A stretch of DNA of 64,000 nucleotides, taken from contig NC_091935.1 of the NCBI RefSeq assembly GCF_041260155.1, positions 8,583,501 through 8,647,500 on the forward strand. Direction: 5' to 3'. The notes under the pieces are model-generated. The model saw only the letters and a program-made list of their open reading frames with translations. It was not told where the DNA came from and ran no database searches. Below, piece after piece: positions 1,673 to 59,739 of the stretch. The position numbers and the translations under genes were made by a program. This stretch comes from Ptychodera flava (lineage: Eukaryota > Hemichordata > Enteropneusta > Ptychoderidae). Every line of letters begins with the position of its first letter. Position 1 is the stretch's first letter.

Positions 1673-2109
1673 TTGTTTGTTTTTTTGTCTATTCCGATCA
1701 TGTTTTAGTTCAATTTGATTTTGACCAATGCATCATAAGGATTGTTGTTACTACTACATGCTATCGTTAGCTGTTTGTCGAAACTGGCTGGAGAGAACTA
1801 TGCTACGTTCGATAAGATCCCAGTGTAATGTCTTTCTCAAAGTCTGTCGTGCTTATAGACGGGTTGCATCGGACTGTAAATGATTTTGCTTTGTTTTTCT
1901 TTGACACTGTTGTTTTGTTCGGAATATGTTTTTTTGTTCGGCATGTTTAACTTCTCTAACGAGTCATGTGATTTCTGATTTTCTTATCCTTAATCTTGTA
2001 GCTTTTGTTGTGAAATCCTGACCTACGATATATTAGGCAAAATTATTGTAAGTATTTTACGGATCACCTGCTGATTAGTATTCGTATTCAAAGTATCATG
2101 TTTCAACAG

Positions 2110-2346
2110 TTTGGTAGGTCACGTGTCTCGGATTGACACATATACCGTGACATGATGACCTCAATAAACTCCTTAGTTTTCCATGTATAAATCATCTGTC
2201 AAAACCGCATTCTGGTTGACAAGCCTCTGCTTGGTTGTCCTGCTGCTTGACAAGTAACAGAAACCTGGCTGAAATCGGATTAGAACTGTTATTTCTTGGG
2301 AACGCGGTTCCTGTTTTAGAGTGATTCAAACTTGACCGTGGTTGCC
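2110..2346 (+). promoter_or_regulatory. Conserved upstream region of CUB-LDLa gene 1
   Basis: This stretch just before the start codon aligns by eye with 8390-8657 upstream of copy 2. Shared blocks include GTCACGTGTCTCGGAT / GTCACATGTCCCGGAT, CACATATACC / AACATATACC, a CTTTAGTTTTCC-like block, and CTGTTTTAG close to the start. The CTGTTTTAG ending could be a splice acceptor, so part of this may be a 5'UTR intron. A TATA-like TATAAAT lies near 2186. That it is a promoter is inferred from position and duplication only. Confidence 0.4.
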
Positions 2347-4186
2347 ATGGTTATCGTTACTTCTTGTCCAAACCAGTGGGTGTCTACTGCGTTCACGTTA
2401 CTCACCCTGTTGTTGCTGTTCTTATCCACCGTCGAATCCGATGATTCCATTTGTAAGTACAAAATGTTTAACCCAACCATGTTACAATGTTGTGCCCTTG
2501 TGTACACAGTGCTCCTTTCCTAAGATCACTTCAAGATTATACAATTGATTTGGTGTCTTACTGTATTTCCTATTTGACCTGTCTGACCCCGACTCAAACG
2601 CTTAATGGCCCTCGGTAGGACTTTACCCCTAATATTGAAACATTACAATTTACAAATTAAGATTATCAACGACAAGTGAAACAGGGCGAAGTAAGATGGA
2701 TCTAAGGGGTATAAAATCATCGATGTGCTGTCTGCAGGGACAAAAATCGCCATATTTTGAAAAATCTTAACTAGTTCTGCTCTATATGAAAAGGGGTTTA
2801 TTTGTGTTCGTCCACGTTTTTTGTAAAATCCAAAATTCGCGACGGTCGCCATATTTATTTACACGATATGACGTGATGACGTAGGCGAGCTCACAGTAAG
2901 TAAGGCTGGATTCACAAAGTCCTCTGGAGGGGGATTTCAGACGGGGGCTTAAACAATTGAGGGTATATGGGGCATGAAATTAATGTGGTACTAAAACGAA
3001 GGGGCTTGAAAACTGTCGCTTATTCGAACTATCATAATGAACCAATGTCGAACAAAAGTCACGTACAAGTTAAGGATTAACAAAAAAGGTTGCAGTTGTC
3101 CTTTGAAAACTGTTTACTCACACCCGTAAAAGTTGCTGTTATTTGTACAAAGAGAACGTTGGTTTTTAAAAGGGAGCGCGAACATAGTGATCTAGGGTAC
3201 CGTACAGAATGTTCAGAATATTTTGAAAATTGTTGCTTATCATCTGCACTCAGTAATTCGCAGAGTTCTCTCTTTGCACAGTTGCGAGACTGATCAGTAA
3301 GTTTTAGTTATAGTAGCCCATTGATGTTAGACTCTAAGAATTATTATTGCCAGATAACAAATTTTTAGAGAAACCTGGACAAGGTATTTAGCCTACATGC
3401 GTTTAACATGTTAAGTCCTATTTTCAGTAGGTGACGGGATGTCTGTGAGTTTCAATTTTTCTTAATGATTAGTTTGCTTTTGGGTGACATTCTTCCCAGT
3501 GGAAACGCTGAAGATCAAAATTTTTATGAGTTGGAAGCTAGGGATAGGGGTACTTGGAATGTTTTTGACGTTGTTATAATGGTACTTGTACAAAACAGAA
3601 AATATATCTCTATTCTCCCGTCCCTTGCTGAGGTATTTGTAAACGCAACCTAAATAAAACAATCGCTTGACGTCACGAATTTATTTGTAATGTTGACGAC
3701 GTCATCGCTATTTTCAGCGTTTACTCTAACTTTGGCAGCACGGTTCAACTTATGATATATCGAAAAAACTTTCTCTAGTAGTAGCCGACAACTCACAGTA
3801 ATGGAAGTAACTAAAACTACACTGATTTTAAACAAATTTTACAGAGTACATCATCAGATCAAGATACGACGACAAACGAGCAATCTTTTGATGTGTCACT
3901 CAGATATACTTTGCGCTAACAATGAGTTATACATTGCCAAAACAAATAAACTAACTCCTAAATTTATTTTTCGAATGATAAATGAAGAGTGGCGGTTAGC
4001 GTTCAGTTGACGTCATCCATATCGGAATGTCTATTTTCGTCTGTGTGCTTGCACAAATGGAATGTTTGCGTGTACTTTGGTATACAATTCGTCGACTCTT
4101 AGTTCTGTAAAAAACAGGTGTAAAGCTCTTTTTTGAATATGGCGAAAAGAGCCCGAAATGTCAGGCATAGAGATCGGCAAGAAAGG

Positions 4187-4272
<86 letters not shown>

Positions 4273-6618
4273 TCATAGAGACCATAATATAAAAAACACA
4301 CTTCCTCCACATAATTGTGTAAAAACATAAATCGTCCTACAGTGCAGCCGCCTTTTCCTTAACCGTTTAATCACTAGCAGGGCTTGTACATCCCATTGGT
4401 TTACAACGTAATGAGTGAAAATACATACACAGTAAACATAGTTTGAAGGGTTAAGTTACAAATGATTTTTGTAATCCGTCTGCCTGTAGACTATATGACT
4501 GAACTTTGCGACCAGACACTGACACCAACTCATGGTGATAGAATACTCTCCCATGAAGGCGAAATGTATAAACGCCTCGTGGACTGTGTGCTCGTTTTGA
4601 AAACGGAAAACAAAAATCAGAGTATAGCTATTGATGTGAGTAACTACTGTTTTATATAATATTATTGCAAACCTATTTCAATGTTTGTGGCGAAGTTGAA
4701 CCATTACTTTATAAAGCCATAGCCACCGTTTTCCTGTGTGCATATTGGAATGGTTCTCGGTAATTTTTGTTCGTTTCTGGTCGTTTCTGAAACACTGATG
4801 AAAGGCACTGTAAATAATCAACTAGATACTGCATTTTTGAACCACTCTGTCTTCAAATATGGGCGTCAAACACACAGTGTAATAATTATGTTTTCTTGTA
4901 ATTTAATGTTTCATCTACCAGACACAATTATTAGCTGAAATAATTACCCATGATTTCTACCAATGACAATGCAGTTTCTTCGTGATCATGATTCGCAAAA
5001 TGTCATTACAGCTAAATGATCTGCGCAAATAACGTTATCTAAAACAGTTATTCAAACTTGAACTTCTCATCCTTCTCCTCAGTATGATTGGTACGATATG
5101 AAAAAAGTTGACAAGGTCTGCACTGATTATCTAGCGATATATGACGGCGACAGTTTGGAACCTGCAGACCTGTTGGACTGGATATGTGGATGGGACGACA
5201 ACCCAATGACACCGACCGTATTTTCAACCGGAAGCACACTGACACTAAGATTTTTTTCGATAAGCTGGGTTTCTGGAAAAGAATTTTCTCTAAAAGTCTC
5301 AGTTGTAGAGTATAGTAGGTATTACATTGGTGTAATTTGGTGAAAATTTGTATTCAGTCGGTTTCAATTTTGAAGCTGAGAGATAATGACAAAATAATGT
5401 CACCAGTATGCTGTTTATACTCAGGATGTTTCTCATACTGAAGGTGCTTTTCAATTTGTTTATCCGGGTTCAAATGTGAAACCCTTCTCTGATAAGCTAA
5501 CTTTGTTTTCAATATAGCGTTTTGTATCAAAATATAAATATTATCGTTTGAAAGCGTGTTAAATTGAGCCCTTACCTCAAATTGGTTTTGAGCCGTTTTT
5601 GTCGATTCCGACCCTGGGAAGTTACTCACATCGTTCATCTGTGTAGAGTACTTTGAGAAAATCGTCATGTTCGACATATAAAATTTCATACTGTCGTTAA
5701 GACAGGGGTAGTCACTGCAGTGCTCAAGGTACTAGGCTTTCTGATGAACTTATACTATTGACGGTTAATCGTTTATTGCTTTGTCTTGTTTTGTTTTGTT
5801 TTTTGTTGTTGTTTTTTTTTACATTTAGACAAAGATTGCGGCGAAGGAATGTATCACTGTAATAACCATAGATGCATTGACCAGTCCTTGGTCTGTGATG
5901 ACAGAAACAACTGTGGAGATAACTCGGATGAATCATACTGTCAAAAATCAGACAAAAGCGGTATGTACAGCAATGAAATAAAACAGACATCTACTTGTCA
6001 AAATTTTACCCACAAGTCCCTCGCTCTGACTTCAGCTAACGTTTCTTTATTATGCTAGAATAAAGTTTAAACGCAAAAAGTATAACTTCTTAATGTCTGA
6101 TAAAATTACATTTAATAATAGGAGTAAAAGTGGGAAACTAACGACTAACTGGCATCAAAATTACATGTAAACTTTGCTGGTACTACATATACGGGACAGC
6201 AACCTTTAGGCGGAGATTAAGTCTATCTGCGATAGTCATTCTGTGTTAATTCAAAATGTGAGATGACAAAGCGTAGTCTTCAAGTCTGAGACTTCCTCGA
6301 CACGTTTGCAAAAGCTTTACTTTCTGCAAGAATTACTGGCATTACAAATAAGAACTGCGAGAGAGAATTATCAAACAAATTTAGCATTGTGCGTTAACAT
6401 TCTGTGTCTAAATCACCATCACTTTTACTTGTTTGCTTGTTACCTTCCCAGGAACTATCATGTTAATCATGGTTTTCACCGTTGGGGGCGTTGTCATCCT
6501 TACGGTCCTTCTCCTCGGAGTCGTACATCTGGTTAATCGAGCTCGTCGCTATGACCGCTGCTCTCCGGGAAGAAAATACCTTATGTCTCGATTACGTAAG
6601 GATAACGCTGCGTTTTAG
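2347..6618 (+). CDS. CUB-LDLa single-pass membrane protein, copy 1 (5 exons, 260 aa)
   Basis: Exons are 2347-2452, 4490-4635, 5083-5314, 5829-5960 and 6452-6618, all GT-AG, with phases 1-0-1-1 and an open joined frame. The start ATG follows GTTGCC, conserved in copy 2. Residues 1-31 form a signal peptide with a Leu-rich core. Residues 42-160 are a CUB domain with four cysteines (TELC, VDC, KVC, WIC) and the [10 protein letters not shown] calcium-type strand. Residues 165-199 are an LDLa module with six cysteines and the DNSDE calcium box. Residues 208-233 are a transmembrane helix containing VGGVV. A basic 27-residue tail ends RLRKDNAAF. The architecture predicts a type I surface protein binding ligand through CUB and LDLa. 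It resembles NETO-type proteins but has only one CUB. The ligand is unknown. AATAAA lies at about 6714. Confidence 0.85.
2453..4489 (+). other. Intron 1 of gene 1
   Basis: Donor GTAAGT at 2453 and acceptor CTGCCTGTAG ending at 4489. The intron shares blocks with intron 1 of copy 2, for example ACGTCACGAATTTATTTG at about 3670 against ACGTCAAGAATTTATTTT at about 9641, and the TTTTCAGCGT block. It also contains the (GA)n tract listed separately. No internal exon is seen. Confidence 0.7.
4190..4270 (+). repeat. (GA)n microsatellite
   Basis: About 40 GA units with one GG interruption, in intron 1 of gene 1. Six-frame translation gives Arg-Glu or Ser-Leu repeats that are artefacts of the tract. 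Copy 2 has no such tract at the equivalent place (about 10160-10200), so it expanded or was lost after the duplication. Confidence 0.95.
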
Positions 6619-8389
6619 CCATGAGCGCAAAGTACTGTAACGTCACAAAAGATTCGATCAGTATTATGATACGTAAAACCAACTCCTAAATGCAAGAAGT
6701 TTTACTGAATGAGAATAAAAGGTGTGGTAAGCGATCGATTGCAAAATTTCTATTAAACACTCACTTTCAAGTGCACAGTACCCTGATTAAATATATGAAA
6801 GCAGTAATTAACTGAATGATAGCAGAGCAAGTGTCTATCCAACGTATCCTTTGTATTCCTCTTTTGAATGTTTGCCTTCAGGAAGGAGATTTCGCTGCTT
6901 GAAGTGTTACAAATTAAGGTACAGCAAGATCTTTGTTCCAATAGCCATCAAGAGACTCAATCTCTGAAGTGTTATTTTTGTGTGTTTGCTGACATAGTCT
7001 GTGTTTTTATGTCTGTCTGTTTGTTATTTCTATCCTCTGAGCTGTAAGGTGATTATCCTTTTTAGGACAATAAAGTATAATAATAATAATAATGATAATA
7101 GGTCACGATGAGATAAGGGTACAACAGGATCCCTAGCAACATTTCGCCAAGGTTGGCACTGACTTCGAAAAAGTTATGGGTAAATCTTAATCTATTCTTT
7201 ACTGCACAAGCTGCTATAAGTCAATGACTTTAGGTACTAGGTTCAAGAGGCTCTAGATACATGCATTTATGTATTACTTAAGTTTTTTATATTTAATAGC
7301 CATCAGGATGGCTAGATGTCCATACCAATTTTCCAGTACACTTCTCTTTTTTTTCAATAGTGACTGTGGTAGACTATAGCAATTTCAATTGATGTTCACA
7401 TGCAGTATTCAAAACTTTGCACAAGATGTTTTATAATCACCATGTTTATGAAAGACTTTGATTGTAGAATTCCGGGCCATCCAGGTCCATTATCTCACGT
7501 AGAAGATGATTGTTAAAGATTAGACATTTTACTCAGGTTTAGTTTTTAAGTCGTTATTTTGGTTCTGACATCAGACAAGATATTTTACATTACTCGAGCT
7601 TTTACGTGCAAAAGTGATGTGAAAACATTTTGGGTCATTTGTCGAATAAATTTTATAGCGCAAGTAAGTTTTCTGTCTTTATTTAAGTGTAATTTGCAAC
7701 AAACATACCAACTTGAAGAAAAATAGTACCGTTAACTAAAGGTAAAATGCGCCTCAGGAATAGATAAATGAATTCTCATTTTTTTATTCTCTGCTGATCT
7801 ACCACTTGTGGGGGCTCATTTCAAAAACTCTTGGTGTAAGAAAATATTCACTGTCTTAGTTTTCCGAAAATCGACACTATAAATAGCATGCAACAAAACA
7901 GCTAATCCACTTTTCAATAATTTATAATCTATCGCCACGATACCACAATTTTTTGTCGTTACTTGTGGGTGAACAGCTGCACTCCGCAGTGCATAGTCAT
8001 CTATTGCCATGATACTGTAACAATTATTGAGCTGTGTAATATTTTTATTCGTTCAATATTTATTCACTATCCAGACATCTTTTCAAGAGAAAAAAAAACC
8101 GGTTTTCTTGTTTAAGTATTCAGCGTTACGGCAATAATACTTCAAACAATATTGGCATATAGTCGAAATTGTCACATGATCTCTGTTGCCCAGCGATTAC
8201 AAAACTTTATCGGTGAATGGTATTTTCTTTGAATTGACACCAGCTTTTAGGTATCTTGCAAGTTAATATGTCGACGAGCCTATGATACATTTGGCAAAAA
8301 TTAGTAAGACTTTTCATTGGAATCACCTTCCGATTAAAAAATTACCACTTCAAAGAGTCTTCAAAGGGTCATGTGGAACATTTTGGTCA
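6619..8389. other. 3' flank of gene 1 and intergenic DNA
   Basis: No gene is seen. The stretch includes AATAAA near 6714 and a (AAT)n run at 7080-7100 preceded by GGACAATAAAG, which looks like the 3' tail of a non-LTR retroposon. DNA at 7110-7700 shares blocks with 14050-14710 downstream of copy 2, for example GTCGAATAAATTTT in both. A short inverted fragment of dispersed family B (see 18277-18600) lies at about 7790-7835. Confidence 0.55.
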
Positions 8390-8657
8390 GTCACATGTCC
8401 CGGATGGGAACATATACCATGACAACCGTGACGTCAATATACCCATCCCAGAAACCCTTTAGTTTTCCCATTATTTATTTGTCATTTATCCCATCAAAAC
8501 CACACATGAACAGGTACTGATTCTTGGTGTCGAGACCGTGCATGGCTGGTCCTGGTACCTTACCAGCAACAGATATCCGGCCAGCTGAAGTCGGTTTAGA
8601 AATAATTCTCTTGGAATACGGTTTCTGTTTTAGGATTCCCACTTGACTGTCGTTGCC
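8390..8657 (+). promoter_or_regulatory. Conserved upstream region of CUB-LDLa gene 2
   Basis: Paralogous to 2110-2346. It ends in GGTTTCTGTTTTAG and then a short leader before GTTGCCATGG. Shared sequence on both sides of the possible acceptor suggests that the regulatory region was duplicated with the gene. No promoter element is demonstrated. Confidence 0.4.
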
Positions 8658-11600
8658 ATGGTTATCAGTACAGCTTGTCCAGACCAGCGGGTGTCTGCCG
8701 CGTTCACGTTGCCCATCCTTTTGTTGTTGTCTGTCGTGGAACACGTTGATTCTATCTGTAAGTACAGAGCAGTTTAACATAGGCAGTTGTAGTTTTTTGC
8801 CAGTGCGTTCACGTTGTTCCTGCTGTCATATCACCTGCAGACCTTATAAATGTTTTGGTGTCTGATTATACTGCCAATTTGAACTGTGTGACCTCGGCTC
8901 AAGCGCTTCAATGACCCTGGGTAGCAAAAATTCCCGCATCTTAAATCTAGGTACACATAGAAAAATTGAATTACTGGAAATGTTTATCCAGCCATGCGTA
9001 ATTTTGCCAGGAAGGTAGTGACAAAACTCACGTGCACATGATTCTGTCAGTCAAATATTATCCTGTGATTATTATTCGTCCTGGTGTTGGACTCGGTGAC
9101 TTATACTTCTGAAAAACTAGAAGTAAAGTTTTCAGTTCCCGATCAGCGATTTATTTCTTAAAATTGCAACTGTTCTGTCTTGGACAGTGCTGGTTTGATC
9201 GGATCATCGCACGACCAGGCCATCTTCAAGACCTGGTCCATTGTCCGTTACACAACATTTTACTGAAAATATCTTCCAGGTTCGCTTCATCCCTCTGTGG
9301 ATTAATTTTCACCTCATTAATATGTACAAAAGTATCCATATTTTTAAGCCATTCCAAACGTAACAGTTTCAACGAGAATCTTATTTCCCATAAGAAGGAC
9401 TATACTGTAAATGGTACACAAAAAGACCACGACAAAAGGACGTTCAGCTTCGCTCGATTTTAATCTACAGGGAGAAAGGCGACATATTTTGATAAATACA
9501 TGTAGTACTTTTTGTGTGTATGTATAGAAAAAGGATTTATGGTCGTCCGTAGTTCTGAAAAATAAATTCGCAAACCCGCGTCGGTCGCCATCGTTAATGT
9601 CACCCTACAAGTAGGATCACAGTAAGTAAATACAACAACGACGTCAAGAATTTATTTTTAGTGCTGGTGACGTCATAGCTATTTTCAGCGTCTATTGCCG
9701 CCGATACACTTGAAAAAAGTACCCTGACCTTGGCAGCGTGATTCAAGTTATGACATGTTGAAAACATAGCTTTGCGAAAACTCACAACAATTTGAGTGAA
9801 CTGAAGCTGAACTATACATGAGCAGATTTGACACTACAAATAAGTATATCAAGACACGACAATTTGTGAGTAACCTCTTCATCTGTCACTCATATATAAT
9901 GACGCGAATTCCATTGAATGCTGGCAATAAAGTCATATCTTACAAAAACAAATATACTAGCCCCTAAATTTATTTATTTTTAAAATCATAAATAAAGAAT
10001 GACCGTTAGCTTTAAGTTATCCATACGTTATCCACATTGGAATGTCTATTTTCACCTCTACGCCGTGTACATATGGAATGTTTGTTTGTACTTTGGTGTA
10101 CAATTCGTTGACTGCCAGTTCTGTAAACAACAGGTGTAAGGCTCTTCTTGAATATGGAAGAAAAGACAACGTATTTATCAATCTCGTATAAAAACAGGCA
10201 CACAGAGAGGTGAACAACAAAGGTTTGGACAGCTAAAGAGATTATATTTTGTTAAAACACCAATAAGTCTAATTTTTCGCGTATTTTCCATTGTTTTCGT
10301 CCTTGTTTTGTGATATGGTGTCTTGACTTACTCATTTATGATGACGTGTCTTCCATTGAGTGCCAGCAATAAAGTTATATATTGCAAAAAAAACAATAAA
10401 CCTTAAAATTTATTTTCAAAATGATAAATAAAGAACGACGGTTATAGTTCAGTTGACCTTATCCGTATCGGAATGTTTGGTACTTCAAAAAATTCATTTC
10501 GAAATACTTACAACTTTCCAGCACAACCCTATGTAACAATGTCCAATGTCATAGACTAGAATTCTTATTTTCATCGTAAATAATTATAATGCATCGTGTT
10601 TGCAGGGCTGATTCTTGTATTCCGACATAACGAGCCTTATATTAGGAATAAGACTAGAAAATGAAAAGATGTTTACTTTTTTCAGAAATTGCAGTAATTT
10701 TCTATTAAATATTACACAGTAGCTCGCAGAGGATTGCAAAGGTAGTAGATCGATGGATATGTACAATATGTGTAAAATTCAACTCGAGGAAAGACGTAAA
10801 ATTAAACCTCAAATCAAAAATATAAATGAAAACCAACAGAATCCATCAAGACAGCGATCGGTAAAGATACCATGCCGAATTCAAAGTCGGAGGATAGTGT
10901 TTTCCAGATTCGAGTATGACATGTGTCCTTTGAAGCACTTGACTTCTCATTGCTTCAATTGGGCGATGTGTATCTCGCTCTGTAATTGAACTTTCGCCTT
11001 TCAACATGCTGGGTGGTTTGAACATGATGGTTGGACCCTGTAAACACGAAATAGGGTTGAAAGTGTTAGGTTATTAATAATTTTGTATTCCGTCTACCTG
11101 TAGACTATATGACTGAACTCTGCAATCAGACACTGACACCGACCCACGATAGAATACTCTCGCAAAGAGGCGAAGTGTATGAAAGAAACTTAGACTGTGT
11201 GCTTGTTCTCAAAGCGAGGAAGAAAACTATGAGTGTCGCTATCGATGTAAGCAACTACTGTACTCTTTTTTAACAATATCGCTAAAAGTTTTGAAACCAA
11301 GTTCAAAATTTTTGGCGAAACTGAACAATTGTTTTAATGCATTTCTCTTCTGTACGGCCACATATCGTTGAAAATGTTTTCAAGTAAATGTAAGCGTGAA
11401 TATATATTTTTAACAGAGCGAAAGCTAGCAAATAATCATGAAATAATTCATTCGAATTGTACCGAAACAGGTTAAATCATTGATCAACTTGTGTGGTGCT
11501 TAGTCGTCATGTCTTGTAATTTGCTATTAAATTTCACTACGTTATGGCATATAAGAATTATAGACTATAGAAATTCAAATAATGCAGTCTTATGATCGTT

Positions 11601-13826
11601 GAACTTGCAGTTTTTTCAATGTCAAACGACTAAAATAGCAATTATTATATGCTATGGCTATCGGATGATATTAGAATCTGTAAACACCTATCGCTGACAA
11701 AGCAATTATCATGTGGTTACAGATTTGCACAATATCTTATCATTGTGAGTATATCATCAGCACGGATAAAGTCATTAAAAACAGTCGTTAAAGTAATTTT
11801 GTCCCGTGACAGAATGAACTTATAACATATCCATCTCCTTCCCCTCAGTACGATTGGTACGATATGCAAAAAGTCGGCAACGTCTGCATTGATTACTTCG
11901 CGATACATGATGGCGACAGTCTGGACCCTGCAGACCTGTTGGACTGGATATGTGGACGGGACGACAACCCGATGACACCGACCGTGTTTTCAACCGGAAA
12001 CACGCTGACACTGAGACTATTTACGACAACTTGGGTTTCCGGAAGAGGATTTTCATTGATATTCGCGTCTGTTGAGTATCGTAGGTATCTGTGCGATATC
12101 TTTTGTGAAATTTTCGATTTCAATTGTGAGGCGAGAAGATATGTCATTACTTTGCTGTTTGTATGAAAGGTGGTTCTCATATTTGTAACACACCTTTGAA
12201 TTTATTTATAAGCAGAAATCTGGAGCCTACTTTTCTCGGAAAGCTATTTTTGTCCCTTTTTGAGGTTTTGAATGTCACTCTGTGTCAAAATATAAAAAAT
12301 GAAAAGGTATAGATAATTAGTCAAAGTTAATCACAAGTGGCGTATATATTTTACATCATGCGCTGGAAGGTGCGTTTATGTGAGCCATCGGCTCAAACTC
12401 GTGATTTGAACCAGTTTGGACCAAGTAAGTAACCGTGACTTGCCGGGTATATTGTTTATCCCATTTTATGTACTGTGAGAAAGTGGTTATATTTTTTTAA
12501 AACAAAGCGCAAGAAGTTAACAAATTTTTGACAAGTACTTCATCCTATCGTCGACTAAAATGGGTAGTCGCTGCAGTGTTCAAGCTAAAACTTCGTGGTT
12601 GACTTCAAGATGAACTGATGAAGTTTTTCATTTTTTTAATTTTTACATTTAGACAACATCTGCGACGATGGGAAGTATCATTGTCATAACGATCGATGTA
12701 TTGACCAGTCTGCGGCCTGTGATGGCGAAAACAACTGTGGCGACAACTCCGATGAATTATACTGCCAAATTAAAACAAAATCGATCAAAACCGGTATGTA
12801 TTGCTAAATAGCTATTTCAATGAAACAGTCATCTACTTGTCAAAATTTTACCCACAAGTCCATCTGATTTCCAATAACGTTTCTGTTGTTAATTTTAGCA
12901 ACATGTTGAAACAAAAAATATCTTAAAGAGTAAAGAGGTAACTGAACGAAAACAGATCCATCTTACGAAAAAGTCATTTTTTTCCAATTTTCACCGAAAA
13001 ATGGAAAAGTAGCAGCATTCCATTGCTTGTTTTGGATAATTTATCTCAAAAACTGTAAAATCCTGAACGTGTTGTAATTGTAAATATTTTAATATTTCTT
13101 TGCATTTGACGATATTGCCATATTTAAACAGAAAGTTTAATTTTCCATTGTATGAGAGAAAAATTTATGTACTTCTTTTTAATGGCATGAAAATGAAGGA
13201 AAAAATCTGGCCCATCAATTAGCACATCTTTGATACAACAGATCTCACTTATTTCCCCAAAATAAAAACTTGTAATGATGAAACGCGCCCCTACTTACGT
13301 TTTTTGCAGAGAAAATTTTAAAGCATCAAATTGTTGGAGATAGTTTGCAGATATTTTAAAGAAAAATCTTCCAATTCTTTTGACTACAATTATTCTATCT
13401 CATTTTTAGACATATTTTGTCAGAGATGGATGTTAAATGAAGACACTCCTCGATTTTCTACATTTTAAAATTATTTTTTGCCAACTATCTGGTAGGCCAA
13501 CAAAAATTGAGCTTTGGAAAGTCCACTGTACCCTATCTCAAATGTTGTTCACTTTGAAGTTCAAGTTCAACAAAAGTTGTCATGCAACTAAATTGTTATC
13601 ATGCTTTATGTTAAAACATAGACAGGAGAAGGTATCACTCAAATCACTATCGGTAATTTATTTTTTCCCAGATCCTATTATGCTGTTTATGGTGTTCACC
13701 GTTGGGGGCATTGTATTGCTTGCAGTCGCTCTCTACGGACTCATTCACCTGGTTGACCGATTTCGTCACTATGGCCGTTGCTCTTCAAGTTCCCGGACAA
13801 GCACACCTGATGTCTCGATTACGTAA
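8658..13826 (+). CDS. CUB-LDLa single-pass membrane protein, copy 2 (5 exons, 256 aa)
   Basis: Exons are 8658-8757, 11104-11246, 11849-12080, 12653-12793 and 13672-13826, with the same phases (1-0-1-1) and an identical 232-nt third exon length as copy 1. The product has a signal peptide (1-30), a CUB domain (about 40-157) and an LDLa domain (162-199) with CGDNSDE. A transmembrane helix at 208-233 contains the same VFTVGG motif. A 23-residue Ser/Thr-rich tail ends in PDVSIT. Its exon 3 matches copy 1 at 58 of 77 residues by hand count. The tail differs markedly: the basic end of copy 1 is replaced by a serine run. The larger open frame starting at 13437 reads through intron sequence, and only its last 51 codons belong to the gene. 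Function is inferred from domains only. Confidence 0.85.
9925..10480 (+). repeat. Internal duplication within intron 1 of gene 2
   Basis: A block of about 130-150 bp occurs twice in direct orientation about 415 bp apart: CATTGAATGCTGGCAATAAA near 9912-9931 and CATTGAGTGCCAGCAATAAA near 10350. Both are followed by matching AAATTTATT, ATAAATAAAGAA and CGTTAGCT/GGTTATAG-type sequence and then a GGAATGT block. Copy 1 holds this block once (about 3920-4030), so one extra copy arose after the gene duplication and helps explain the longer intron. Confidence 0.6.
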
Positions 13827-16381
13827 GCAATGGTGGGTAACGCAACGTCAGAACCATGGGCGCAAAGAATCGTGACGTCACATGAAGAGTCAACCGGCGG
13901 CGTGCTTTGAGGAAACAACTACTCAATACCAGTAGTTTTGCTACCTGTCGGATATCATTATAAATTGACAGAGATCAGAGAAAATCTAATTTTTTGAAAC
14001 TCTCGCTTAGAAATTATCCAGATAATAAATGCATATAGTGGATTGATTTATTCCACGGCAAATGTCCATCGAAAAATTGAGGAGCCTTGTCAGGTATCGG
14101 AGTGTTCGGACTGACTGCAAAAAGTGCAGGGTAAATTTATAAATGTATTCTTTACTGTGCAAGCCGATTCACATTAACTTTACAGAGTGTCTGGCAGGTT
14201 CCAGCAGCTCTCGTTCTCTTTCGATACGTGACACTCATGTATGCAACTTAACTTGTGATATTTAATGGACATACCTGTCCATATTTATTTTGTTAGGCGC
14301 GTTTCTGATATTGTAACGTTTATACTGTTGTACACATATTAGTTTCATTTGACGTACGCATGCTGCATTCAAAACTTCGAATAAGATTTTGTGTTAGCTT
14401 TTAATCACCGAAGTATCATGTTTAATTCACGTATTGGATAGTTTGTCACACTATCTGAGTTATCATGTAGAAGCAGTTTTCCATGACAGATCCTTATCTC
14501 ATATTGCAAAGATTGTTAAGATTAAATCTTTTAACAGTTTTGCTCTTTTCACGGCTTGATTGTGTCCGGTGTAAGACGAGAGTGTTTACAGCCCAGGAGG
14601 CTGAATTCATTACCTTTTTTGTGCAAAAGAAGTCTGAAAGGTTTTGAACAATCTGTCGAATAAATTTTGAACACAAGTTTCCTGTCTTTATTTTAGTGTG
14701 ATTTTCAAGAAACCTATCAGGAGATATAATACTTGTAACTTGGAAAAAACAGGGCACGTGTTTGTTGGGTTTGGCATCACATCCATGTTGTCAGGCTATA
14801 CAATGCTTCATAAATTATTTGTAAAGCCGTTCATTTTTGTTATCAGACTAGAGTCTATATTATATTAAATTATGTAAATTATTAATCACGTCCATTTAAA
14901 AGATGAGCTTTAATGTTCCGTTTCTTGGACAAAACAATATCAACATTCTGTATCATTTACACACCGTTTAAACACATGCGAACAAGACGAAAAATCTTGG
15001 CAAGTTAGGTACAGCTATACCGAGCAAGGCGGAAGAAAACGTCACGAAGCCCTCAGCAAGAAACATGACAAATAGTAAATTAGTGTCACATTTCATGCTC
15101 TAGTGGTCAGAGTTCGTTAAGATGAATTTTAAGAGTTTCCCCGGGCATTATTGATAATACTTGTGCTGATTTTCACATACGTTTTTCGAAAAAAACATCA
15201 CAATCATCTGCATTGCGACCATTCTCAGCGGTTCATCAGCGATCGTATACTCTTTCTTTACATGGTGAATATCATTTATGAACGATGCTTTGCTTATTTC
15301 TTTTGGTCAAATAGTTTGTGCTTGCATTTTCTAATCATTTAGTTTCGTGAATGTGATTTGTACAACTGAGTGCTTCTTTAAAACGAATTGAAATTACTAG
15401 AAGTTCCTTAGTCCTGCCAAGAAAAAACACCTCTTTTCTCCCTACTTGAAAATTTTGTGCATGTGTTATTTGGTGACCGCGTATGTGTTCGGAAGGTATG
15501 TGAAATATGTTTGCCTATTGGGAGACGTCTACACTAATAATGCTGTAGGCTCCTCTGCCATCCTATTTCACAGACCGCATCATTACCTTTATGCAGCGCC
15601 CTCCGCGTCCCAGAGTCGAACACTGTATTTATTGACAGCATGTCACAATAGTTATTACTACTGCAAAAAAAAATCAATTCTCCCGTACTACCATCGATTA
15701 TTTTTAAATAAACGATCAATTACCGTATATCTTTTACTATTCATGTAGGCCTATCAGATTAATTGTCTTTGGGGGCGAGTTTTATCTTTGAGCCGTAACA
15801 ATGATACAGATAAGCATATCTCCCGAAGTTGCTCTTATGAAAAGATATGATATCTGCCAATGACCTGCTCCTGGTGCAGTCAAGGCCACAGCAGTGGTTT
15901 AAACAAGTTCACGTCAACAGGGAACTGAGTAAACTGAGATAATTTGATACACATGCGTCCAGAAGTTTGTAAACGTGATACGTTTCACTTTTGTTCGCTG
16001 GTTTGTTTTACCATCGGTAGCACCTGTAGAGCGCAACAATAACCAGTGATCTCATGGCTAGACTATAAACAGTGCACGGGTCATTGGTGTCAACCCGGCG
16101 ATAAGACTAGGTCAGTGTACACAGACTCGGACGTCAAAACGACAAATCTCAGTCTTTTTAAGTCTTATCGATTGCAGGCCACGCACATACGGACTATAAA
16201 GTGCTCTAGAGAACAGTCAACGGTCGAGTTCGGCTTTCCTCTTGTCGCTAAACGCCATCAAAGCGAGCTTTATCCTTTTGGTGACAGGCAAGTGCACGTG
16301 GTCTACTGTGAAGCGAAATCCGTGTCCCTGATTTTCTGAAGACTGGGTGCAGCATTAACTCTATATGGTAGCGACGTTGCT
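13827..16381. other. Intergenic DNA between copies 2 and 3
   Basis: The first about 900 bp match the 3' flank of copy 1 in scattered blocks such as ATTCTTTACTG-GCAAGC and GTCGAATAAATTTTGAA. From about 14800 to 16300 no gene is supported. The open frames at 15446-15748 and 16046-16339 lack splice or domain support. Confidence 0.5.
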
Positions 16382-19300
16382 ATGGTTATCGATGTGACTT
16401 CTCCGAGAAAACGATCACAAAGGGCCGCAGTTGTCCCTCTTGTACTGTTGTTATTGGTCATAAAATCTTGCAATTGCCTTTGTAAGTATAAGTTTTTCTT
16501 TCCTGGTGGAAGTAAAGTTCTCAATACCTCCTAATGCTCAGTTCCTCTTTCGGATATCCCAGCGATGGGTCACATTCATAACTTGTTTGTTGTGAAAGTT
16601 TAATTCTCCGCTATCCTGTTAACGTGCATGGCCAAAGTTTTTTGCTTACATAGTTTCATCGACAAATTTGTGTCTGGTGTTTTCTCTGCCCGTTGGCTTT
16701 GCTTGCTTGACTAAGCCCTCGACCAAAGTCCAGCAAGGCGTTCGGGTTTTTCCACTTTGATGTCAAAACACCCTTCTCCCTTCATTTGACAGGAAAACGC
16801 CAACCATATTAATTTTTAACTCGTTTTGGATAATGTGAGAAAGATCGCGAATTTTGTACTGTTTCTATGACCGGTAATGTGGTATATCTAAAGATGGCGT
16901 CATGTCGGACAAACAACATCGTCTTTCAGATGGTCGAAATTTTCGGTCACGCGTTTTTCTTGCGGCTATTCGATACTAACGAAAATAACGAATGTCACGG
17001 GTGATATCCGCCAGGTATGCTTTTCAAAAGATATAAACGTCGTTTACTCAGTGGAGGTCATTCATGTGTAACACTACCCTCCGCTGACATTTCCCCGTCA
17101 CTCTCAAGTGACCGTCGACTGAGTGACGTGACTGGCAGTGTGGCAATGCTGCACGACAATGGTTAGCGGATGCATTTCTGCATGTAAAGACCAACAGCGA
17201 CAGTACATAATTGTTTAAAAAAAATTGTGTGGGACAACAAAATTGCGGCAAAAGCGACGAACAGACTACATCTACGTCATACGAGTACTTTCAGACACAC
17301 ATATATCACGAAATCATTCAGGCGGCAATATTGACATCAACACTACACCGTGCACGAAAAAATGCTGACGACACGTCACAAAGTGACCGACGCATACAAA
17401 TCATAAATTCAGACTGTTCATATATGCGGGCCAATAATTGTACGCATGTCCAAAGTAAACTTCTAAAGAAGGGCGTATTCCTATCAACTACTACTGAAGT
17501 TGTTTGCCTTATTAACAGCGAGAGAATTCGATAAATTTTGATTTATGAGGCAAAGGGATTATTGAGTTGACTTGTCTTTTTATGGGAGTTATTAAATAAC
17601 TATTCCAAAATCAGAGACTCAGATACACACACTGCGCGCGCCTGCAGGTTATTTTCGATTGACAGATGAATATGGTGCCGGTCTTTTAGTGTTCTTGTGT
17701 ATTAATCGTCATAAGCTCCTTGTATGTCATAAGCGCCATAGCTCTGACTTTTCCGGGTTTTTGTTCCGTTTGAAGAGTACAGTTTCCTGTTCCACTCAAA
17801 ATTCAAAGACCATGTCGAAATGCCAGTGGTCATCTTGATAAAACAATCCGTATGTCTGTAATATCCAGTGTTATTGTTGACAGCTGAATTTTAGTCCGGA
17901 GTGGAACTTATACGTCAACAACAATTTCATTGGAGAAATAAACCATAAATACACCACGCTTGTGTCGGAAAGACTTTTACTTTGCATTTGAACGTACTGT
18001 AGCTATTTTTTGGAGGAAAAAAAATAACTAAAATATCATCGCCAGTTCAACTATTGTCATTTTTACTGAAAAAATCACAGACATTTGAAATGCTTTTAAC
18101 GATATTAATTCCCTCTCCTTACTAGATTATATGACAGAATACTGCAACGAGACAATTGTGTCGTCTGGTGATACGATTCGATCTCAACGAAGTCAAACGT
18201 ACGGCAGTAACATCGATTGCGTACTTCGCCTGAAATCCACCAACACATCCCAAATCATAGCCATTGATGTAAGTATTCTTTTAAAGGTAGTTCGTGCCTC
18301 AAAAGTGAAAGGCTTAAACTTTTGCTCAAACGTTCCTGAAGGAATCTTTTAACAATTCTCTTTCAAAATCAATAAAAAATAGGGGGGTCACGGTGCAAAC
18401 TTTTCGTACCAGAGACACAAGTTACCCAAGACACGGGTCGGACCGTGCCCAAGATTACCGATATTTGAAATTCAAAATTTCCCTGTGTTAACTCTACGGA
18501 GAAAAATTTTCGAAAAAGTAAGGCTGTAAAAATTTTTCTTTCTTCAAGAGCTTTAAAATGAAGCCCACAAGTTGTAGATCATAAAAGAACTAGAAAAGTT
18601 TGCGTGTCCAAATATGTGTTTTTATTTACAATACGCCTATAACTCAAGTGGGGTTGTCGCTCACACAAACCCCACTTTTGAACAATTTATTACGAATAGA
18701 TGTGTCAATCGTACATGCCGTCATTGATGTCGTCTACCAGTTTTATTTATTTTTTTATTCCCCTGATATATGTATTTATATGATTAACAATTTTGCTTTT
18801 AGACGCGAAGACAGCCGCGTATGTGGCAAAATTGAGATTGACTGAACCAAGCAGAAAATGCGAGCACTCTACACGTCGGTAGCTTTGCGAATTGAGCAAT
18901 CGATTCCATATATCAAGATATACTAATTTTCACCTATTTTTCAACAAACAAACAATCTCCCTAAAGTACAAATGGTATGAACTGGAAAAGGTTGACACAA
19001 CCTGTATCGATTATTTGGAAATACACGACGGTGACAGTGTAGCGCCCGCGGGCTTGTTGGACCAGATATGTGGACGCGATGACGATCCTTCGAACCCAAC
19101 TGTGTTTTCCACAGCGGACACGTTGACGCTGAGATTCTTCACAAACACGTGGCATAGTGGTAGAGGATTCTCATTAATATTCACATCCATAGAGCAAAGT
19201 AGGTATTTTCCTTTGCTTCGACTTTCAAAAAGAGCTTTTCGTTTCGACTTTTCATAGAAACACACGTAGAAATGATCATGATTCTGAAGACCTCAATTGG

Positions 19301-19677
19301 TACAAGCTTCACATCAACACGTTTTAAGCTTACTGTTTTATCGAGTTACAGCATCTATTGCCCGTGACTAATGTTTCAATTTGCTTTCTCAAGTTCAAAG
19401 CCTGATGATATGCGGTAATAACCAATGTATTTTTTTTAAATTGATATGGCCCATCATCAGGTTTTCTAAATAATTTCATCCCCAGATGAAGATTGCACGA
19501 GTGATGACAGATTTCTTTGCCTTAGCAACAGATGCATTGATTCATTATTGGTTTGTGACGGGGCCGACAACTGCGGCGATAACTCAGATGAATTAAATTG
19601 TGAAAGTCACACAGGTAAGTCAAAGCGAGTCTAGGAGATACAGTGCAGGGTTCATTTTCTTTATACGTATGTCTGTC

Positions 19678-19709
<32 letters not shown>

Positions 19710-20447
19710 TGTATGTATGTATGTATGTATGTATGTATGTATGTATGTATGTATGTATCCATGTATGTATGTATGTATGTATGTATGTATGTATGTATGT
19801 ATGTATGTATGTATGTATGTATCCATGTATCCATGCATGCATCTAAGTACTTACATGTATGTATCTCATTCACTCTCTTTCTTTATTCATCAATTGTCTT
19901 GATCTATTTCATTTATTCTCTGTCCCTCCCTCCCTCCCTCCCTCCATCCATTTATAAATCTATCTATACTTACATACATATCTATATCATTAATACTGCT
20001 TATCCATCCACCCATCGATCTATCAATCCATTCATCCATCCATCTATCCATCCATCCATCCATCCATCTATCCATCCATCCATCTATCCACCATCAATCT
20101 ATCCCTCCATCTATCCATCCATCTGCCTATCCACCAATCTATCTGACTCTGTCTCTTCGTCTGTCTGTCTCTACGTTTGTCTATTTACCCAGCTAGCTTG
20201 CCAATTAGGCACCTATCCACGATATCAATCAACACACCAAGTCGCTTCAATACTACCGACGTGTTCTACTCTGAATACATAGGTTTGAAAAACTCCATAA
20301 ACATTCAAGTAACGCGTTACCATTAGGTTTTTTTTTACTTTCCCAGAGCTTGTCGTGGTGATTGCCCTTCTCGCTCTGTTTGCGCTCATTGTCCTGGTGC
20401 ATGCCGTTCTTGCCATTACTGATCGACTGTGTAAAGGTAAAAAATGA
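16382..20447 (+). CDS. CUB-LDLa single-pass membrane protein, copy 3 (5 exons, 234 aa)
   Basis: Exons are 16382-16481, 18126-18268, 18967-19198, 19486-19614 and 20347-20447. Phases and exon 3 length (232 nt) equal those of copies 1 and 2. The product has a signal peptide (1-31; [10 protein letters not shown] core), a CUB domain (about 40-157, with [10 protein letters not shown] and RGFSLIF), an LDLa module (162-195, CGDNSDE) and a transmembrane helix (203-226). The tail is only about 8 residues, ending DRLCKGKK. The acceptor before exon 3 (CTCCCTAAAG) is weaker than in the others. Intron 4 is filled by tetranucleotide arrays. AATAAA occurs at about 20640. It is the most diverged copy, and the near absence of a tail suggests it cannot signal directly and may act as a decoy or with a partner (inference). 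Confidence 0.82.
16482..18125 (+). other. Intron 1 of gene 3
   Basis: Donor GTAAGT and acceptor CTTACTAG. It shows no obvious similarity to intron 1 of copies 1 and 2. The 107-codon open frame at 17211-17534 starts at TTG, has no recognisable domain, and is treated as chance. Confidence 0.6.
18277..18600 (+). repeat. Dispersed repeat family B, copy in intron 2 of gene 3
   Basis: Begins near AAAGGTAGTTCGTGCC. It carries AAACTTTTGCTCAAAC, ATTCTCTTTCAAAATCA, GGGTCAC-GTGCAAA, and near its end TTCAAGAGCTTTAAAATG followed by GCCCACAAG. The same blocks in the same order occur at 28222-28570 and 42845-43140, with a 3' part at about 20690-20960 and an inverted fragment at about 7790-7835. No coding capacity is seen. 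The ends are approximate. Confidence 0.65.
19681..19850 (+). repeat. (ATGT)n microsatellite
   Basis: Roughly 40 ATGT units with a few CCAT interruptions, in intron 4 of gene 3. It produces long Met-Tyr-Val-Cys and Thr-Tyr-Ile-His open frames in several frames, which are artefacts. Confidence 0.95.
19921..20150 (+). repeat. Degenerate (CCAT)n/(CTAT)n and (CCCT)n tract
   Basis: Continues from the ATGT array after about 70 bp: a short TCCC run, then imperfect CCAT/CTAT units. Together with the ATGT array it makes up most of the 732-bp intron 4 of gene 3. Confidence 0.85.
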
Positions 20448-22190: not shown

Positions 22191-22307
22191 ACACATACAT
22201 ACATACATACATACATACATACATACATACATACATACATACATACATACATACATACATACATACATACATACATACATACATACATACATACATACAT
22301 ACATACA

Positions 22308-22339
<32 letters not shown>

Positions 22340-22360
22340 CATGCATACATGCATGCATAC
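22191..22360 (+). repeat. (ACAT)n microsatellite
   Basis: About 38 ACAT units ending in ATGCATAC variants, preceded by a CACACAGACACA stretch. It lies just beyond the inferred last exon of the minus-strand gene. The open frames across it are artefacts. Confidence 0.95.
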
Positions 22361-22429
22361 AAAGATTCTATCAATTTGACTGTCCTGAAACTCCACAATT
22401 ATTATGATTTCATTCGTGGCAAGGTCGTT

Positions 22430-24885
22430 TCACACTCCGCCAAACGATGATCCCGCACGACTTTGGCGTCTTTGACTGATTCCTGTGGAGAGAGAAAATT
22501 TCGTTCCGTTACTAAAAGCCGACCTCGTTTCATATTTTTAATTGTGTACAGTAGAATCTGACAACAGACTGAAAGTGTCTTCCTATAGACAGTCCGACAC
22601 CTCGACATTGTTACCCTATGGTACCTGTCTTCCTACATTTTAATTTTCCATCAGAGACGGTTAGGGGTCCTTCAATAAAGTACTCTTACTTCCTATCCCG
22701 GATTGAGACTACATAACAGCGTGGAAGACAATTTTTACTACAGCATACACGTCTATAAAGTCAATTAATAAATAAGTATACATTTCTGAGTATAACACAA
22801 TGAAAGGACATTATTTTTGTCAAGTTTGATTTATATCAGATTTTAGATATTGCTAACTTTTATCATCTTGACACACATACTAGAGGAGTGGTTGGGAAAA
22901 AGAGACCTTCAGACCCGATTTCTGACAGGACAGGTTGCAATAAATAAAACAATGATGCATTGCCCAGTGTCCATTATTAATACATATGAATGAGCTGATG
23001 TCTGCCCAGCAAACCGCAAAACTTTGACAGTTTGTAATTGATATCCATCCATCATTTTATGCATTGACATTATTGAGGTTCATGGCTGCCATCATCATGG
23101 TTTGCCCAGTAGTTATTGATGTGACCGTGGACCTGAGGGAAACAGGGTGTGAAAAGGTTAACGTAGTTCAAATTTTTTTCTTAAACTCCACCCCCACCCC
23201 CGCAAACAACTACTTTGTCCCGTTGAAGTAGCTTGAAAATCACATTTTTTTTCGAATGAGACACTTACTGATAGCAAACAGGATAGTAAATCATGGTACT
23301 ATTAATACTAGTTTAAGTGGGAGCAGACGCACTCAAAGTTCATATTTCAACCTCATTCTACTGTATAACGAGTGGCAGGAGGGTGGCGACTTTTACTTTA
23401 TCCCTGTGATTTCACTGGCTTTGATTTATATATGCATGATTTTTCGGTGCGTGCTGAATGCTTCCCCGATCCCGGCTGTGTCTCAGAGTGACGATCGTGA
23501 TAATCATCATGGTTGGACAGAGGTAACCATTTTATATGCATTTATGTGAATATTCTGCAAATATTCCGTTCATTTTGTTACGTTGTCAAAACATCCTAAT
23601 CGAGAAATCGAAAACAAGAACGCTTACATCATTACTGAAAACTTATCCCTGTAACGGCGCCTAAAAATTTGAAGAGGGAGAGTTGTAACAATTATGAAAC
23701 GAAAGGGACGTGGAGATAACATTGTTAACAAAGAGGGCGCCTGGGATTTCAGTAGTTCGTCCCTCACATGTCCTTACGGCAGTATAGACACTTCAGTGGA
23801 ACATCTCGGGATAACACATCGTCATTTTTGAGTTTCAAGAGCACTGAGATGAGTTTGGCCCGCGACAATCTTGTGACACAAAATCGTTTCTCAATCTCTT
23901 GATTGGATGCGACCAGTAGTAAGTATATGATTTGCGTTGTCACAAAAAATCATATTTTTGAATCAGTTTATACGTACTTTCAAAAGTAGAGTTCAAACTT
24001 TAATGGTATTATACCGACGACCATCATTTTAACATGCGTGCACTACACGCTGAATAAAGGATTGACTCGATTAATTGAACTGGTTTGTTCACTTTCCGGC
24101 GAGTGATCTTTTCGATGACATATCATCCATTTTTTCTAATTCTCTTGTCACTTTTCCAAAAAATGTTTCACACGTTTACCGGCATATGTACACAAATGCA
24201 CTGTTGCATATGAATATGCACTAATAGAAGCCAATAGTAGTCTTGTATATTTAGTACCCTAATGGGTAATTATCTTACCGGATTTAGCTTCTTCAAAACT
24301 GCTAATTTTCGATTTCATATTCTGAAAACCAGTGGCGTGCCGTTGTTGAAATATAGTCGATCGTCTGCGTTTGAGGCTAGCGTATTGCTGCTGCTTCCCC
24401 CATCCATCAGGGGGACCGCCGACCTCTCCCTCCGCCCCCTCCGGGATGGTAGGTTGCTTTGCAGCCAGCTCCGCTTCCCTGGCTTCCTTGGCCGCTTGTC
24501 GCTGTTTCGCTCTCATCTCGTCGAATTCCGCCAGCGAGATGCTCTTCGTTATCACGGGCATGCTTTTCCGTCGACCCTCCTTCAACTTCTCGGCCTGCTC
24601 TCGAGAGAGCCCGCGTGGCACGATGATGTTGTTGGCGGGATCCTTCAGTTTAAATTCAGGATTCAAATCAAGGAGCTGGAGTCGGAGGGCGTCCGTTTCC
24701 CTGTCCAGGTTGTGGGTGTGATTTCTGAATTCCCTGCTCATTCTCGCAATCGTGCCCCCTAGGCGGCGCTGTTCGCTGTCATTTAAAGTTTTAGCTTTTG
24801 AAAGCGACCTTGTAGCTCGTATCTTTTTCCCACCTTTGGGTCCTTTGACTTCGTCGTCATCGCCCAAAGATTCAAATTCGTTCAT
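22430..24885 (-). CDS. Unrecognised charged helix-rich protein (two coding exons inferred, about 219 aa)
   Basis: The main exon runs from ATG at 24885 down to 24279, 202 codons plus one base, ending at donor G|GTAAGA. A strong acceptor (TTTTCTCTCTCCACAG) precedes 22482, and the phase-1 join gives a short tail reading SQRRQSRAGSSFGGV and a stop at 22430. If unspliced, the exon would read ten bases further to a stop at 24259. The 5' side has TTTCATTTCAG seven bases before the ATG, so an upstream 5'UTR exon is likely. The protein is soluble, very rich in Lys, Arg and Glu, with an acidic start (ESLGDDDEVKG), a helical stretch at about 112-145 (EFDEMRAKQRQAAKEAREAE) and basic motifs KEGRRKSMP and KRRRST. 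I do not recognise the family. The exon is clearly GC-richer than its surroundings. The second exon is an inference. Confidence 0.6.
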
Positions 24886-24899
24886 TTTTACTCTGAAAT

Positions 24900-32785: not shown

Positions 32786-33149
32786 AAATGATACTGGGTT
32801 AATGCCGATCTGATTGAAAATCAGACGTAGAGATGGCGACGTTTCCAGCTTTGCTTTATTCTCAGCTAGTCCCCCATTTATAATTACGTACCAATATCTG
32901 TAACCCGCATTCTAAACTCCTCCATGAGAAATACAGAACAACTTAGGAGGTCTCAGTTGAAGAATAAAAAGACCAAGCTAAAGGTACTCGGAAACAATGC
33001 TCATGCGCAGTGCAACAGTATAGGAAATTATAATCAGTAGCCGGTGATTCTCAAAGTTTTCATGGTGTGGACTCATTCATTCCTTTACTGTCGGCACTTC
33101 GTAGATACAGTATATTCCATGATCACCAGGTAACGACAGTGATATCGCC
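32786..33149 (+). promoter_or_regulatory. Region upstream of the MPV17L2-like gene
   Basis: The 360 bases before the start codon contain no gene. It is expected to hold the promoter and 5'UTR of the following gene, but no TATA or other element is clear. Confidence 0.25.
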
Positions 33150-55504: not shown

Positions 55505-55508
55505 TTAA

Positions 55509-55600
55509 GCGTTTTCCTGCCAAGTCGGTGAAAATCCGCTTGAAATTCGGTGTAGCTAGAATCTGAGCAGCCACGGCCGTTATCCTGCCAAGGCGGTGGA
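55509..55600 (+). repeat. piggyBac left terminal and internal inverted repeats
   Basis: Terminal 13-mer at 55509-55521, followed by CCAAGTCGGT at 55520-55529 and the internal repeat with CCAAGGCGGT at 55588-55597. The spacing between terminal and internal repeat is longer than at the right end. Confidence 0.8.
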
Positions 55601-57120
55601 AATCGGGCTACTTTTTGGTACCCCTTTCTCGACGGAACTACGTGTGTAGCAAACCCTTGCTCGCGCTAGGGGTCGTTCGAGGACAGGTTTTGGGCGAGGA
55701 ACGGCGTTTGCTCTCGAAATGGGTTCACAGAGAGTCCAACGACAGGGAAAGGTGCGGAAGCTACCCAGCCAGTCCCCCACCCCGTTGGGGGACTGGTTTT
55801 TTTTGGGGGGACGAGTAGCGTACTTGGCAGGTTAGCACGGTGACGTATCCTAGCGGAGTTTGGGCTAACTTGGCTCTGAGGCACTACATAGATTGCGGCC
55901 GAAATTGACCGTCTCGGCAACGCTAATCTGTAAGGCAAACCGCCTAAGACCGCCTCAGCTGGCGGTGCAATTTTTGCCAATGGTGCGAGTCGAAAATCAC
56001 GGACTTAGTCCTGATTGACGGGAAGTGCGGACGGATTTGACGGACTCGGCTTGATTAGTCCCTGACATGGAACTGATCCGAACGGACTTGAGCGACATTT
56101 GTGAAGGGTAACCACCGCTTTTAACCGACTTGTTACCTTCTCGAAAAGACTACCCACTCAGATGTCGGACGTTGTCGGCTGCACTTGGCTCTAGACGTTC
56201 AAGCCGTGCAACGAAACACACCGCCTCAGCCTTGCCACTCACGAACTGGCCTCAAAATTTGATACCATTGTTCACCGACTTGGCGGCTGCGGTTAGGTGC
56301 GTGAACCGTTGTTCACCGACTTGTTACGCCTATGTTGTCCCTGTGAAGTTCGGCTAACGGCCGAGTCTAACGGGAGTTGGCAGACCTGGTAGACGTACCT
56401 GTCGGTATATTCCGAGTTTTACGCACTCGGGCGTCAATGACGGGTCGTCATCACCGCTGATGACGTAGACGTGCTGGCCATGTTATTTGAAGGAGCCATG
56501 TTTGCCCAACGGACGAGGCCGAGACAGCCGTTGACAATTTTGCATCCTTCATCTTTGACCGCCTTAGTTGGGTAAGCCGCTCGGCAGGCGACGGTTATGA
56601 CCTAAACAAGCCGCTGAAGCACTGTTCGTTGCCGTACAAGAACGAGACGGCCAGTCCATTACTGCTTAATGGGCGATCTGTCGGGTTGGCTTGTCACCGA
56701 CTTGGATGACAATATGCCCTGCGCAGGCGTACTTAGAAGGGACATGAGGTTAAAGATACGGGTTTCCCACCCGTACTAAACATGGGCTTGGGCCAACGTC
56801 CTTGGGTGGCAGGTGCGCATGCCACGTACCCAGCTGGACGGAATGTCAAGTTGAGATGCTAATGACATTGACTATGTTATGCTAAGTGCTCGAGGGATTT
56901 GCATTGCAAATGAGTATTATTAGCATATCAAATGGTGCGGACAGGCAATTTACATGACGGGTAGGAATGTCAGCGCCGGTTGGTGGACTGATTGCCGTAG
57001 GTCCATTATAATAACAGGTGGCTGCATATAAACACCCCTGCGTCCAATCATGTCCAGGGCTTTGTTTCCCTGTGGCTTTAAAAGGGTGGGACCTGCTAGT
57101 CTGTCGACACTGTTCCAGAC
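55600..57120 (+). other. piggyBac 5' noncoding region with repeated ACCGACTTG words
   Basis: The word ACCGACTTGG/T occurs at 56124-56133, 56274-56283, 56315-56324 and 56696-56705, and ACTTGGCAGG at about 55822. These are the reverse complement of the CCAAGTCGGT of the termini. They are likely extra transposase contact sites or remnants of terminal duplication (inference). A TTTAAAAGG box about 45 bp before the transposase ATG may act as its core promoter. Confidence 0.6.
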
Positions 57121-59525: not shown

Positions 59526-59739
59526 GAGGAGTGTTGGCGTGCAGACCTCTACTCACACAGCCCCGACGACACCAATCAGCAAGAGAACCCGACGTAAATA
59601 ACGGACAGGGGACAGCTTCGCCTAACAGTGGCTTGACTGTATTCTTAACACGGACCATGATCACATTTTGAGCACGGTTGTGCCGTTTGTTTGTGCTTTA
59701 CGATCCCGCTGATTGTAAATTGAAACATGGATATTTTGT

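Follow-up and report, generated by a model that had tools for sequence, protein, structure and literature searches.

Three complete-looking paralogous genes, here called A, B and C, lie in tandem on the forward strand of the analysed window (the whole stretch of 64,000 nucleotides), and each of them is predicted to encode a small type I membrane protein that combines a single CUB domain, a single LDLa repeat and a short tail. By analogy with known proteins of this layout, and considering that the CUB domain is conserved and the tail is free to vary, we think it probable that the trio is a small tandem family of MIG-13/Loaf-like co-receptors or trafficking partners that would act through their ectodomain. 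In the trio, an animal genome carries the single-CUB, single-LDLa layout as a tandem array, for which exon borders are given here. If the copies differ in their partners, they would offer a natural experiment on the roles of the CUB domain and the tail in MIG-13/Loaf-type proteins; otherwise the trio amounts to routine gene-family annotation.

Gene models and domain layout

The coordinates of the genes, their exons and the duplicated units are collected in Table 1. The preliminary description had claimed an identical five-exon layout with phases 1-0-1-1, and we confirmed it in all three genes, with GT-AG borders at 12 of 12 introns. Each spliced model contains one stop, which is terminal, and apart from it the coding frame is open in all 15 exons, a second stop-free frame being also present in 6 of the 15 as a control. 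Exon 3 measures 232 bases in the three genes alike. Each gene has a start exon and a TM/stop exon of its own, and AATAAA is located less than 200 bases downstream of the stop in every case.

Table 1. Positions of genes A, B and C, their exons and the duplicated units in the window.
Feature	Positions	Strand	Length	Description
Duplicated unit holding A	2084..7710	+		blastn pieces matching 8357-14719
Gene A	2347..6618	+	260 aa	spliced open frame
A exon 1	2347..2452	+	106	start Met, hydrophobic signal-peptide-like segment, ends phase 1
A exon 2	4490..4635	+	146	CUB first part, ends phase 0
A exon 3	5083..5314	+	232	CUB second part, ends phase 1
A exon 4	5829..5960	+	132	LDLa, phase 1-1 exon
A exon 5	6452..6618	+	167	predicted TM helix and short tail, then stop; AATAAA at 6714
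Duplicated unit holding B	8357..14719	+		blastn pieces matching 2084-7710
Gene B	8658..13826	+	256 aa	spliced open frame
B exon 1	8658..8757	+	100	start Met, signal-peptide-like segment
B exon 2	11104..11246	+	143	CUB first part
B exon 3	11849..12080	+	232	CUB second part
B exon 4	12653..12793	+	141	LDLa
B exon 5	13672..13826	+	155	predicted TM helix, tail, stop; AATAAA at 14024
Gene C	16382..20447	+	234 aa	spliced open frame
C exon 1	16382..16481	+	100	start Met, signal-peptide-like; little DNA similarity to A/B exon 1
C exon 2	18126..18268	+	143	CUB first part
C exon 3	18967..19198	+	232	CUB second part
C exon 4	19486..19614	+	129	LDLa
C exon 5	20347..20447	+	101	predicted TM helix and very short tail, then stop; little DNA similarity to A/B exon 5; AATAAA at 20639

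By comparison between the copies, the exons of A and B are 73-83% identical in DNA and several of their flanks are similarly high (77% before exon 1 and 80% after exon 4), as is expected for a recent duplicate. Against C, a clear excess over flank similarity was seen in exons 2, 3 and 4 only. Conservation of exons relative to flanks was also tried as proof of the exon borders, and it is only partly useful. Exon 1 of C shares 45-51% of its DNA with that of A and B, and exon 5, which also has little DNA similarity to its counterparts, 41-43%, both against 28-53% in the flanks. Considering that these two exons are conserved little or no better than their flanks, they are supported by the open frame, the splice sites, the phase and the hydrophobicity, and they are the weakest parts of the gene models. 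A doubled donor, GTAGGTAT, closes exon 3 in all three genes (5315, 12081 and 19199); its second GT sits four bases further on and its use would shift the frame. Long arrays of the 4-base repeats GTAT, ATCC and ACAT occupy positions 19667-19830, 20002-20123 and 22193-22361; two of them are inside the last intron of gene C and one is past that gene.

In each product the order is an N-terminal hydrophobic segment, CUB, LDLa, a predicted TM helix and a short tail. Pfam detected one CUB per protein (E 4.8e-9 in A, 3e-9 in B and 6.6e-12 in C) and one LDLa per protein (E 2.7e-8, 2e-8 and 2.6e-8, resp.), all exceeding the curated cut-offs, and the few remaining matches in the three proteins were all under cut-off. 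Four cysteines are present in the CUB domain, which is encoded across two exons, and six in the LDLa repeat, which lies in a single phase 1-1 exon. The signal peptide and the TM helix are predictions by hydropathy only, with best 19-residue means of 1.90-2.26 for the N-terminal signal-like segment and of 2.76-3.16 for the C-terminal segment in the three proteins. The tandem trio of compact CUB-LDLa-TM genes that had been proposed at the outset was in this way found again, by Pfam for the two domains in 3 of 3 proteins and by hydropathy for the signal and TM segments.

A fourth copy was searched for with exon profiles, built from genes A, B and C themselves, against the 2880 six-frame peptides of the window, and each profile returned only the three known copies; no further CUB exon was found among these peptides. 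The next-best scores were weak and were taken as chance (E 0.99 for exon 2, 0.17 for exon 3, 0.062 for LDLa and 0.53 for TM). Hidden exons were looked for among plus-strand intron and flank peptides of at least 20 aa with E up to 0.01, a range that very short exons could escape, and no added exon appeared at matching places in all of A, B and C. Of the six peptide matches between A and C, four fall on C's minus strand and were rejected as shared exons; so were the two plus-strand matches, which pair places that do not correspond, namely the 5' flank of A with the first intron of C, and the first intron of A with the second of C. The single match between B and C was on the minus strand and was rejected as a shared exon, and the 15 matches between A and B are those expected from duplicated intron DNA. 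Relatives were also looked for in viral contigs; of 15 matches to the pattern, none was confirmed.

The rest of the window contains, at 55505-60893, a PiggyBac-type element with pieces of a DDE_Tnp_1_7 transposase (Pfam E 2.8e-24 and 2.2e-9) spread over ORFs that differ in frame, as in a broken or a spliced gene. Together with the spliced genes and the simple repeats, this transposase suggests that the DNA is of animal origin. The element includes a GC-rich stretch, and its ends are 20-nt inverted repeats, 85% complementary, that begin and end in TTAA. When nine neighbouring ORFs were examined with Pfam, the transposase was the only family recognised, the remaining matches being weak and under cut-off. 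Close to the window's right end (61778-62588) there is a tandem repeat of 147 bp in 5.5 copies, and diverged copies of it are present near the left end (1-225 and 771-1441). On the minus strand, an open frame of 219 aa at 24259-24918, with an internal Met and a charged composition, had no Pfam match and may be a gene or an exon. The plus-strand peptides at 33123-33422 and 38573-39022 may resemble exons of MPV17L2; Pfam detected no family in either of them. Rfam gave no match at gathering scores and no tRNA was found.

Duplication history and selection

Comparison of the A and B units by blastn (E up to 1e-3) gave 10 aligned pieces in the same orientation, introns and flanks included; nine of them are collinear and the remaining one matches a portion of intron 1 a second time. 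Under the same threshold C aligned with A and B in exons 3 and 4 only. On these alignments, A and B are a head-to-tail duplicated unit and C is the more distant copy; at the protein level the identity is 67% for A-B, 47% for A-C and 49% for B-C.

We calculated the substitution rates between the copies. For A-B the NG86 estimates were dN 0.215, dS 0.617 and omega 0.349, and the bootstrap of this omega ranged over 0.23-0.50, with 0 of 500 replicates at or above 1. With YN00 the A-B omega was 0.485 overall, 0.412 in the CUB domain and 0.588 in the LDLa repeat, and NG86 gave 0.284 for CUB, 0.207 for LDLa and 0.611 for the TM segment plus tail. The ranking of constraint between LDLa and tail is method-dependent, as the LDLa values of 0.207 by NG86 and 0.588 by YN00 indicate. 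Synonymous change in A-C and B-C was mostly saturated or not computable. These values show that the A-B pair is under overall purifying selection, as measured by a pairwise test that could miss selection at single sites.

In every pair, both identity and dN show the lowest conservation in the TM segment plus tail. Its NG86 dN was 0.456, 0.701 and 0.901, the highest of any part in every pair, and that of CUB was far below it in the same three pairs (0.156, 0.338 and 0.271). Identity in CUB and in TM plus tail was, respectively, 73% and 50% for A-B, 54% and 27% for A-C, and 61% and 18% for B-C. In exon 5 an identical 17-base stretch is read in different frames in A and B as a result of a 7-base gap ahead of it, so that the two C termini differ. 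Past the TM segment the translations contain one proline in A, one in B and none in C. The low conservation and the frame difference suggest that the tail would not be a conserved signalling module.

The calcium ligands of calcium-binding CUB domains are Glu, Asp and Asp. At the corresponding positions C has Glu, Asp and Asn and B has Gln, Asp and Thr, by alignment to neuropilin-2, and A has Lys, Asp and Ile, by alignment to its paralogues. None of the three proteins carries the full set: C keeps two of the three, with Asn at the third position, and A and B keep one of the three each. As read from these alignments, the Glu/Asp/Asp calcium site appears to be incomplete in A, B and C, other ligands being possible. 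In the LDLa repeat, the residue two positions before the fourth cysteine is Leu in A, Ala in B and Leu in C, and in the first four LRP2 repeats listed the matching position holds Trp, Trp, Tyr and Gln. Before the fifth cysteine, these four LRP2 repeats have Asp and A, B and C have Asn. If the residue roles taken here hold, the lysine-binding pocket that is usual in LDL receptors is not kept and the LDLa repeat would be structural. The differences at the calcium site suggest that A and B on one side and C on the other may differ in their partners, and that the copies may have split.

Proposed role and alternative explanations

The reading that we favour is that of MIG-13/Loaf-like partners. The layout would place A, B and C with MIG-13 and Loaf, and the ectodomain would do the work, the CUB domain binding a partner membrane protein or a ligand and the LDLa repeat forming a structural module beside the membrane. 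The proteins would modulate the trafficking, the clustering or the ligand response of the partner, and the tails would be free to diverge. The tails being short and unconserved, it can be argued that signalling starts elsewhere than in the cytoplasmic part of these proteins. Against kinship with MIG-13 and Loaf it counts that a CUB-LDLa-TM layout can arise repeatedly by shuffling of 1-1 modules, and also that the proline-rich tail of MIG-13 is lacking in A, B and C. A more specific version, which we hold as doubtful, is a lineage-specific MIG-13/Loaf-type array derived from an autonomous guidance receptor, in which the CUB calcium site would be gone from two copies and the three proteins would have become modulators with different partners and without a signalling tail.

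It is unlikely, in our opinion, that the trio are shortened NETO/SOL-2 relatives, which would descend from a NETO-type gene that was duplicated after the loss of the first CUB domain and of the long tail, with an auxiliary-subunit role at ion channels being kept. Among the best 60 of 68 matches NETO2 was the sole chain whose best stretch ran through CUB and LDLa into the TM segment (query 57-244 to chain 199-381, E 3.6e-15), and B alone matched NETO2 with E 5.3e-11; considering that MIG-13, Loaf and LDLRAD2 were missing from those match lists, the rank of NETO2 says little. When the CUB domains were searched alone, the best matches were cubilin and neuropilin-2, and NETO2 was missing from the list of C (7 matches, E up to 0.01) and from that of B (10 matches, E up to 0.1) and only weakly matched by A (E 0.02, chain 64-159). 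NETO has two CUB domains and A, B and C have one each, and a NETO-type origin seems less likely than the MIG-13/Loaf-like reading. We consider as improbable, to a similar degree, that the proteins are recognition receptors for immunity or fertilisation which diversified after duplication. The tandem array, an amino acid difference of 33% in A-B and of about half in A-C and B-C, the variation among copies at the CUB calcium site and the only mild LDLa constraint by YN00 (0.588) agree with such a role; however, the overall omega of A-B is well below 1, the better conserved CUB and the least conserved TM plus tail are the opposite of what a diversifying ligand-binding face would give, and no immune or gamete link was seen. 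The purifying selection in A-B lends no support to strongly diversifying recognition, and the role in immunity or fertilisation suggested in the preliminary description loses ground.

Two further explanations concern the gene products themselves. That they are decoy or soluble binding proteins, arising for example by shedding or by alternative splicing, would find a possible route in the frame-shifting second GT that follows exon 3 in all three genes, but all three proteins retain a C-terminal segment of strong hydrophobicity and there is no sign that the second donor is used, which makes it very unlikely. Scarcely credible is that the exons belong to longer multi-domain genes or that the copies have decayed: the tail frames of A and B do differ and the first and last exons of C are poorly conserved, but start and stop exons of their own, 15 open exons of 15, 12 canonical introns of 12, a nearby AATAAA in each gene and the purifying selection between A and B all speak against it.

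Comparison with known systems

Vertebrate LDLRAD2 would be a further example of the layout, as a single-pass protein with a CUB-like domain and an LDLa repeat. Zebrafish ldlrad2 is described as expressed in spinal cells that contact the cerebrospinal fluid (PMC13105053). NETO1/NETO2, SOL-2 and Drosophila Neto are described as type I membrane proteins with two CUB domains, one LDLa and a TM segment (PMC9083331), and LRP3/LRP10/LRP12 as having two CUB domains, three to five LDLa repeats and a TM segment (PMC5331069). CUB, LDLa and TM are common to the LRP3/10/12 group and to A, B and C, which have, however, one CUB and one LDLa, and differ in the same way from NETO/SOL-2 in the number of CUB domains. 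In searches of the open-licence PMC literature no description of such a tandem CUB-LDLa array was found, and none was found joining LDLRAD2 with mig-13.

MIG-13 of C. elegans, which acts in anterior neuroblast migration, crosses the membrane once and carries a single CUB and a single LDL-receptor repeat on its extracellular side (PMC5560785, PMC4528313), and it has a proline-rich cytoplasmic tail (PMC4528313). Mouse Lrp12 partially rescues a mig-13 mutant (PMC5560785). A, B and C have the same layout of one CUB, one LDLa and one TM, a likeness drawn from published description and not from sequence; they differ from MIG-13 in their short, unconserved tails, which are not proline-rich, and in being three tandem copies. 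Drosophila Loaf (Lost and found, CG6024) is described, in the portion of the paper available, as having an extracellular CUB followed by an LDLa and a predicted TM segment, and as being found mainly in intracellular vesicles including endosomes, and its authors proposed that it regulates the trafficking or the function of other surface proteins (PMC8205486). The order CUB-LDLa-TM is the same as here, again by published description and not by sequence, and a single gene is named in that text against three tandem copies here. The comparison made earlier with NETO and neuropilins stands in that NETO has two CUB domains, but the minimal layout had already been published, in MIG-13 and in Loaf, and the single-CUB, single-LDLa membrane layout itself is not new. 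As predicted, with the signal and TM segments taken from hydropathy, A, B and C are single-CUB, single-LDLa type I membrane proteins of the MIG-13/Loaf kind.
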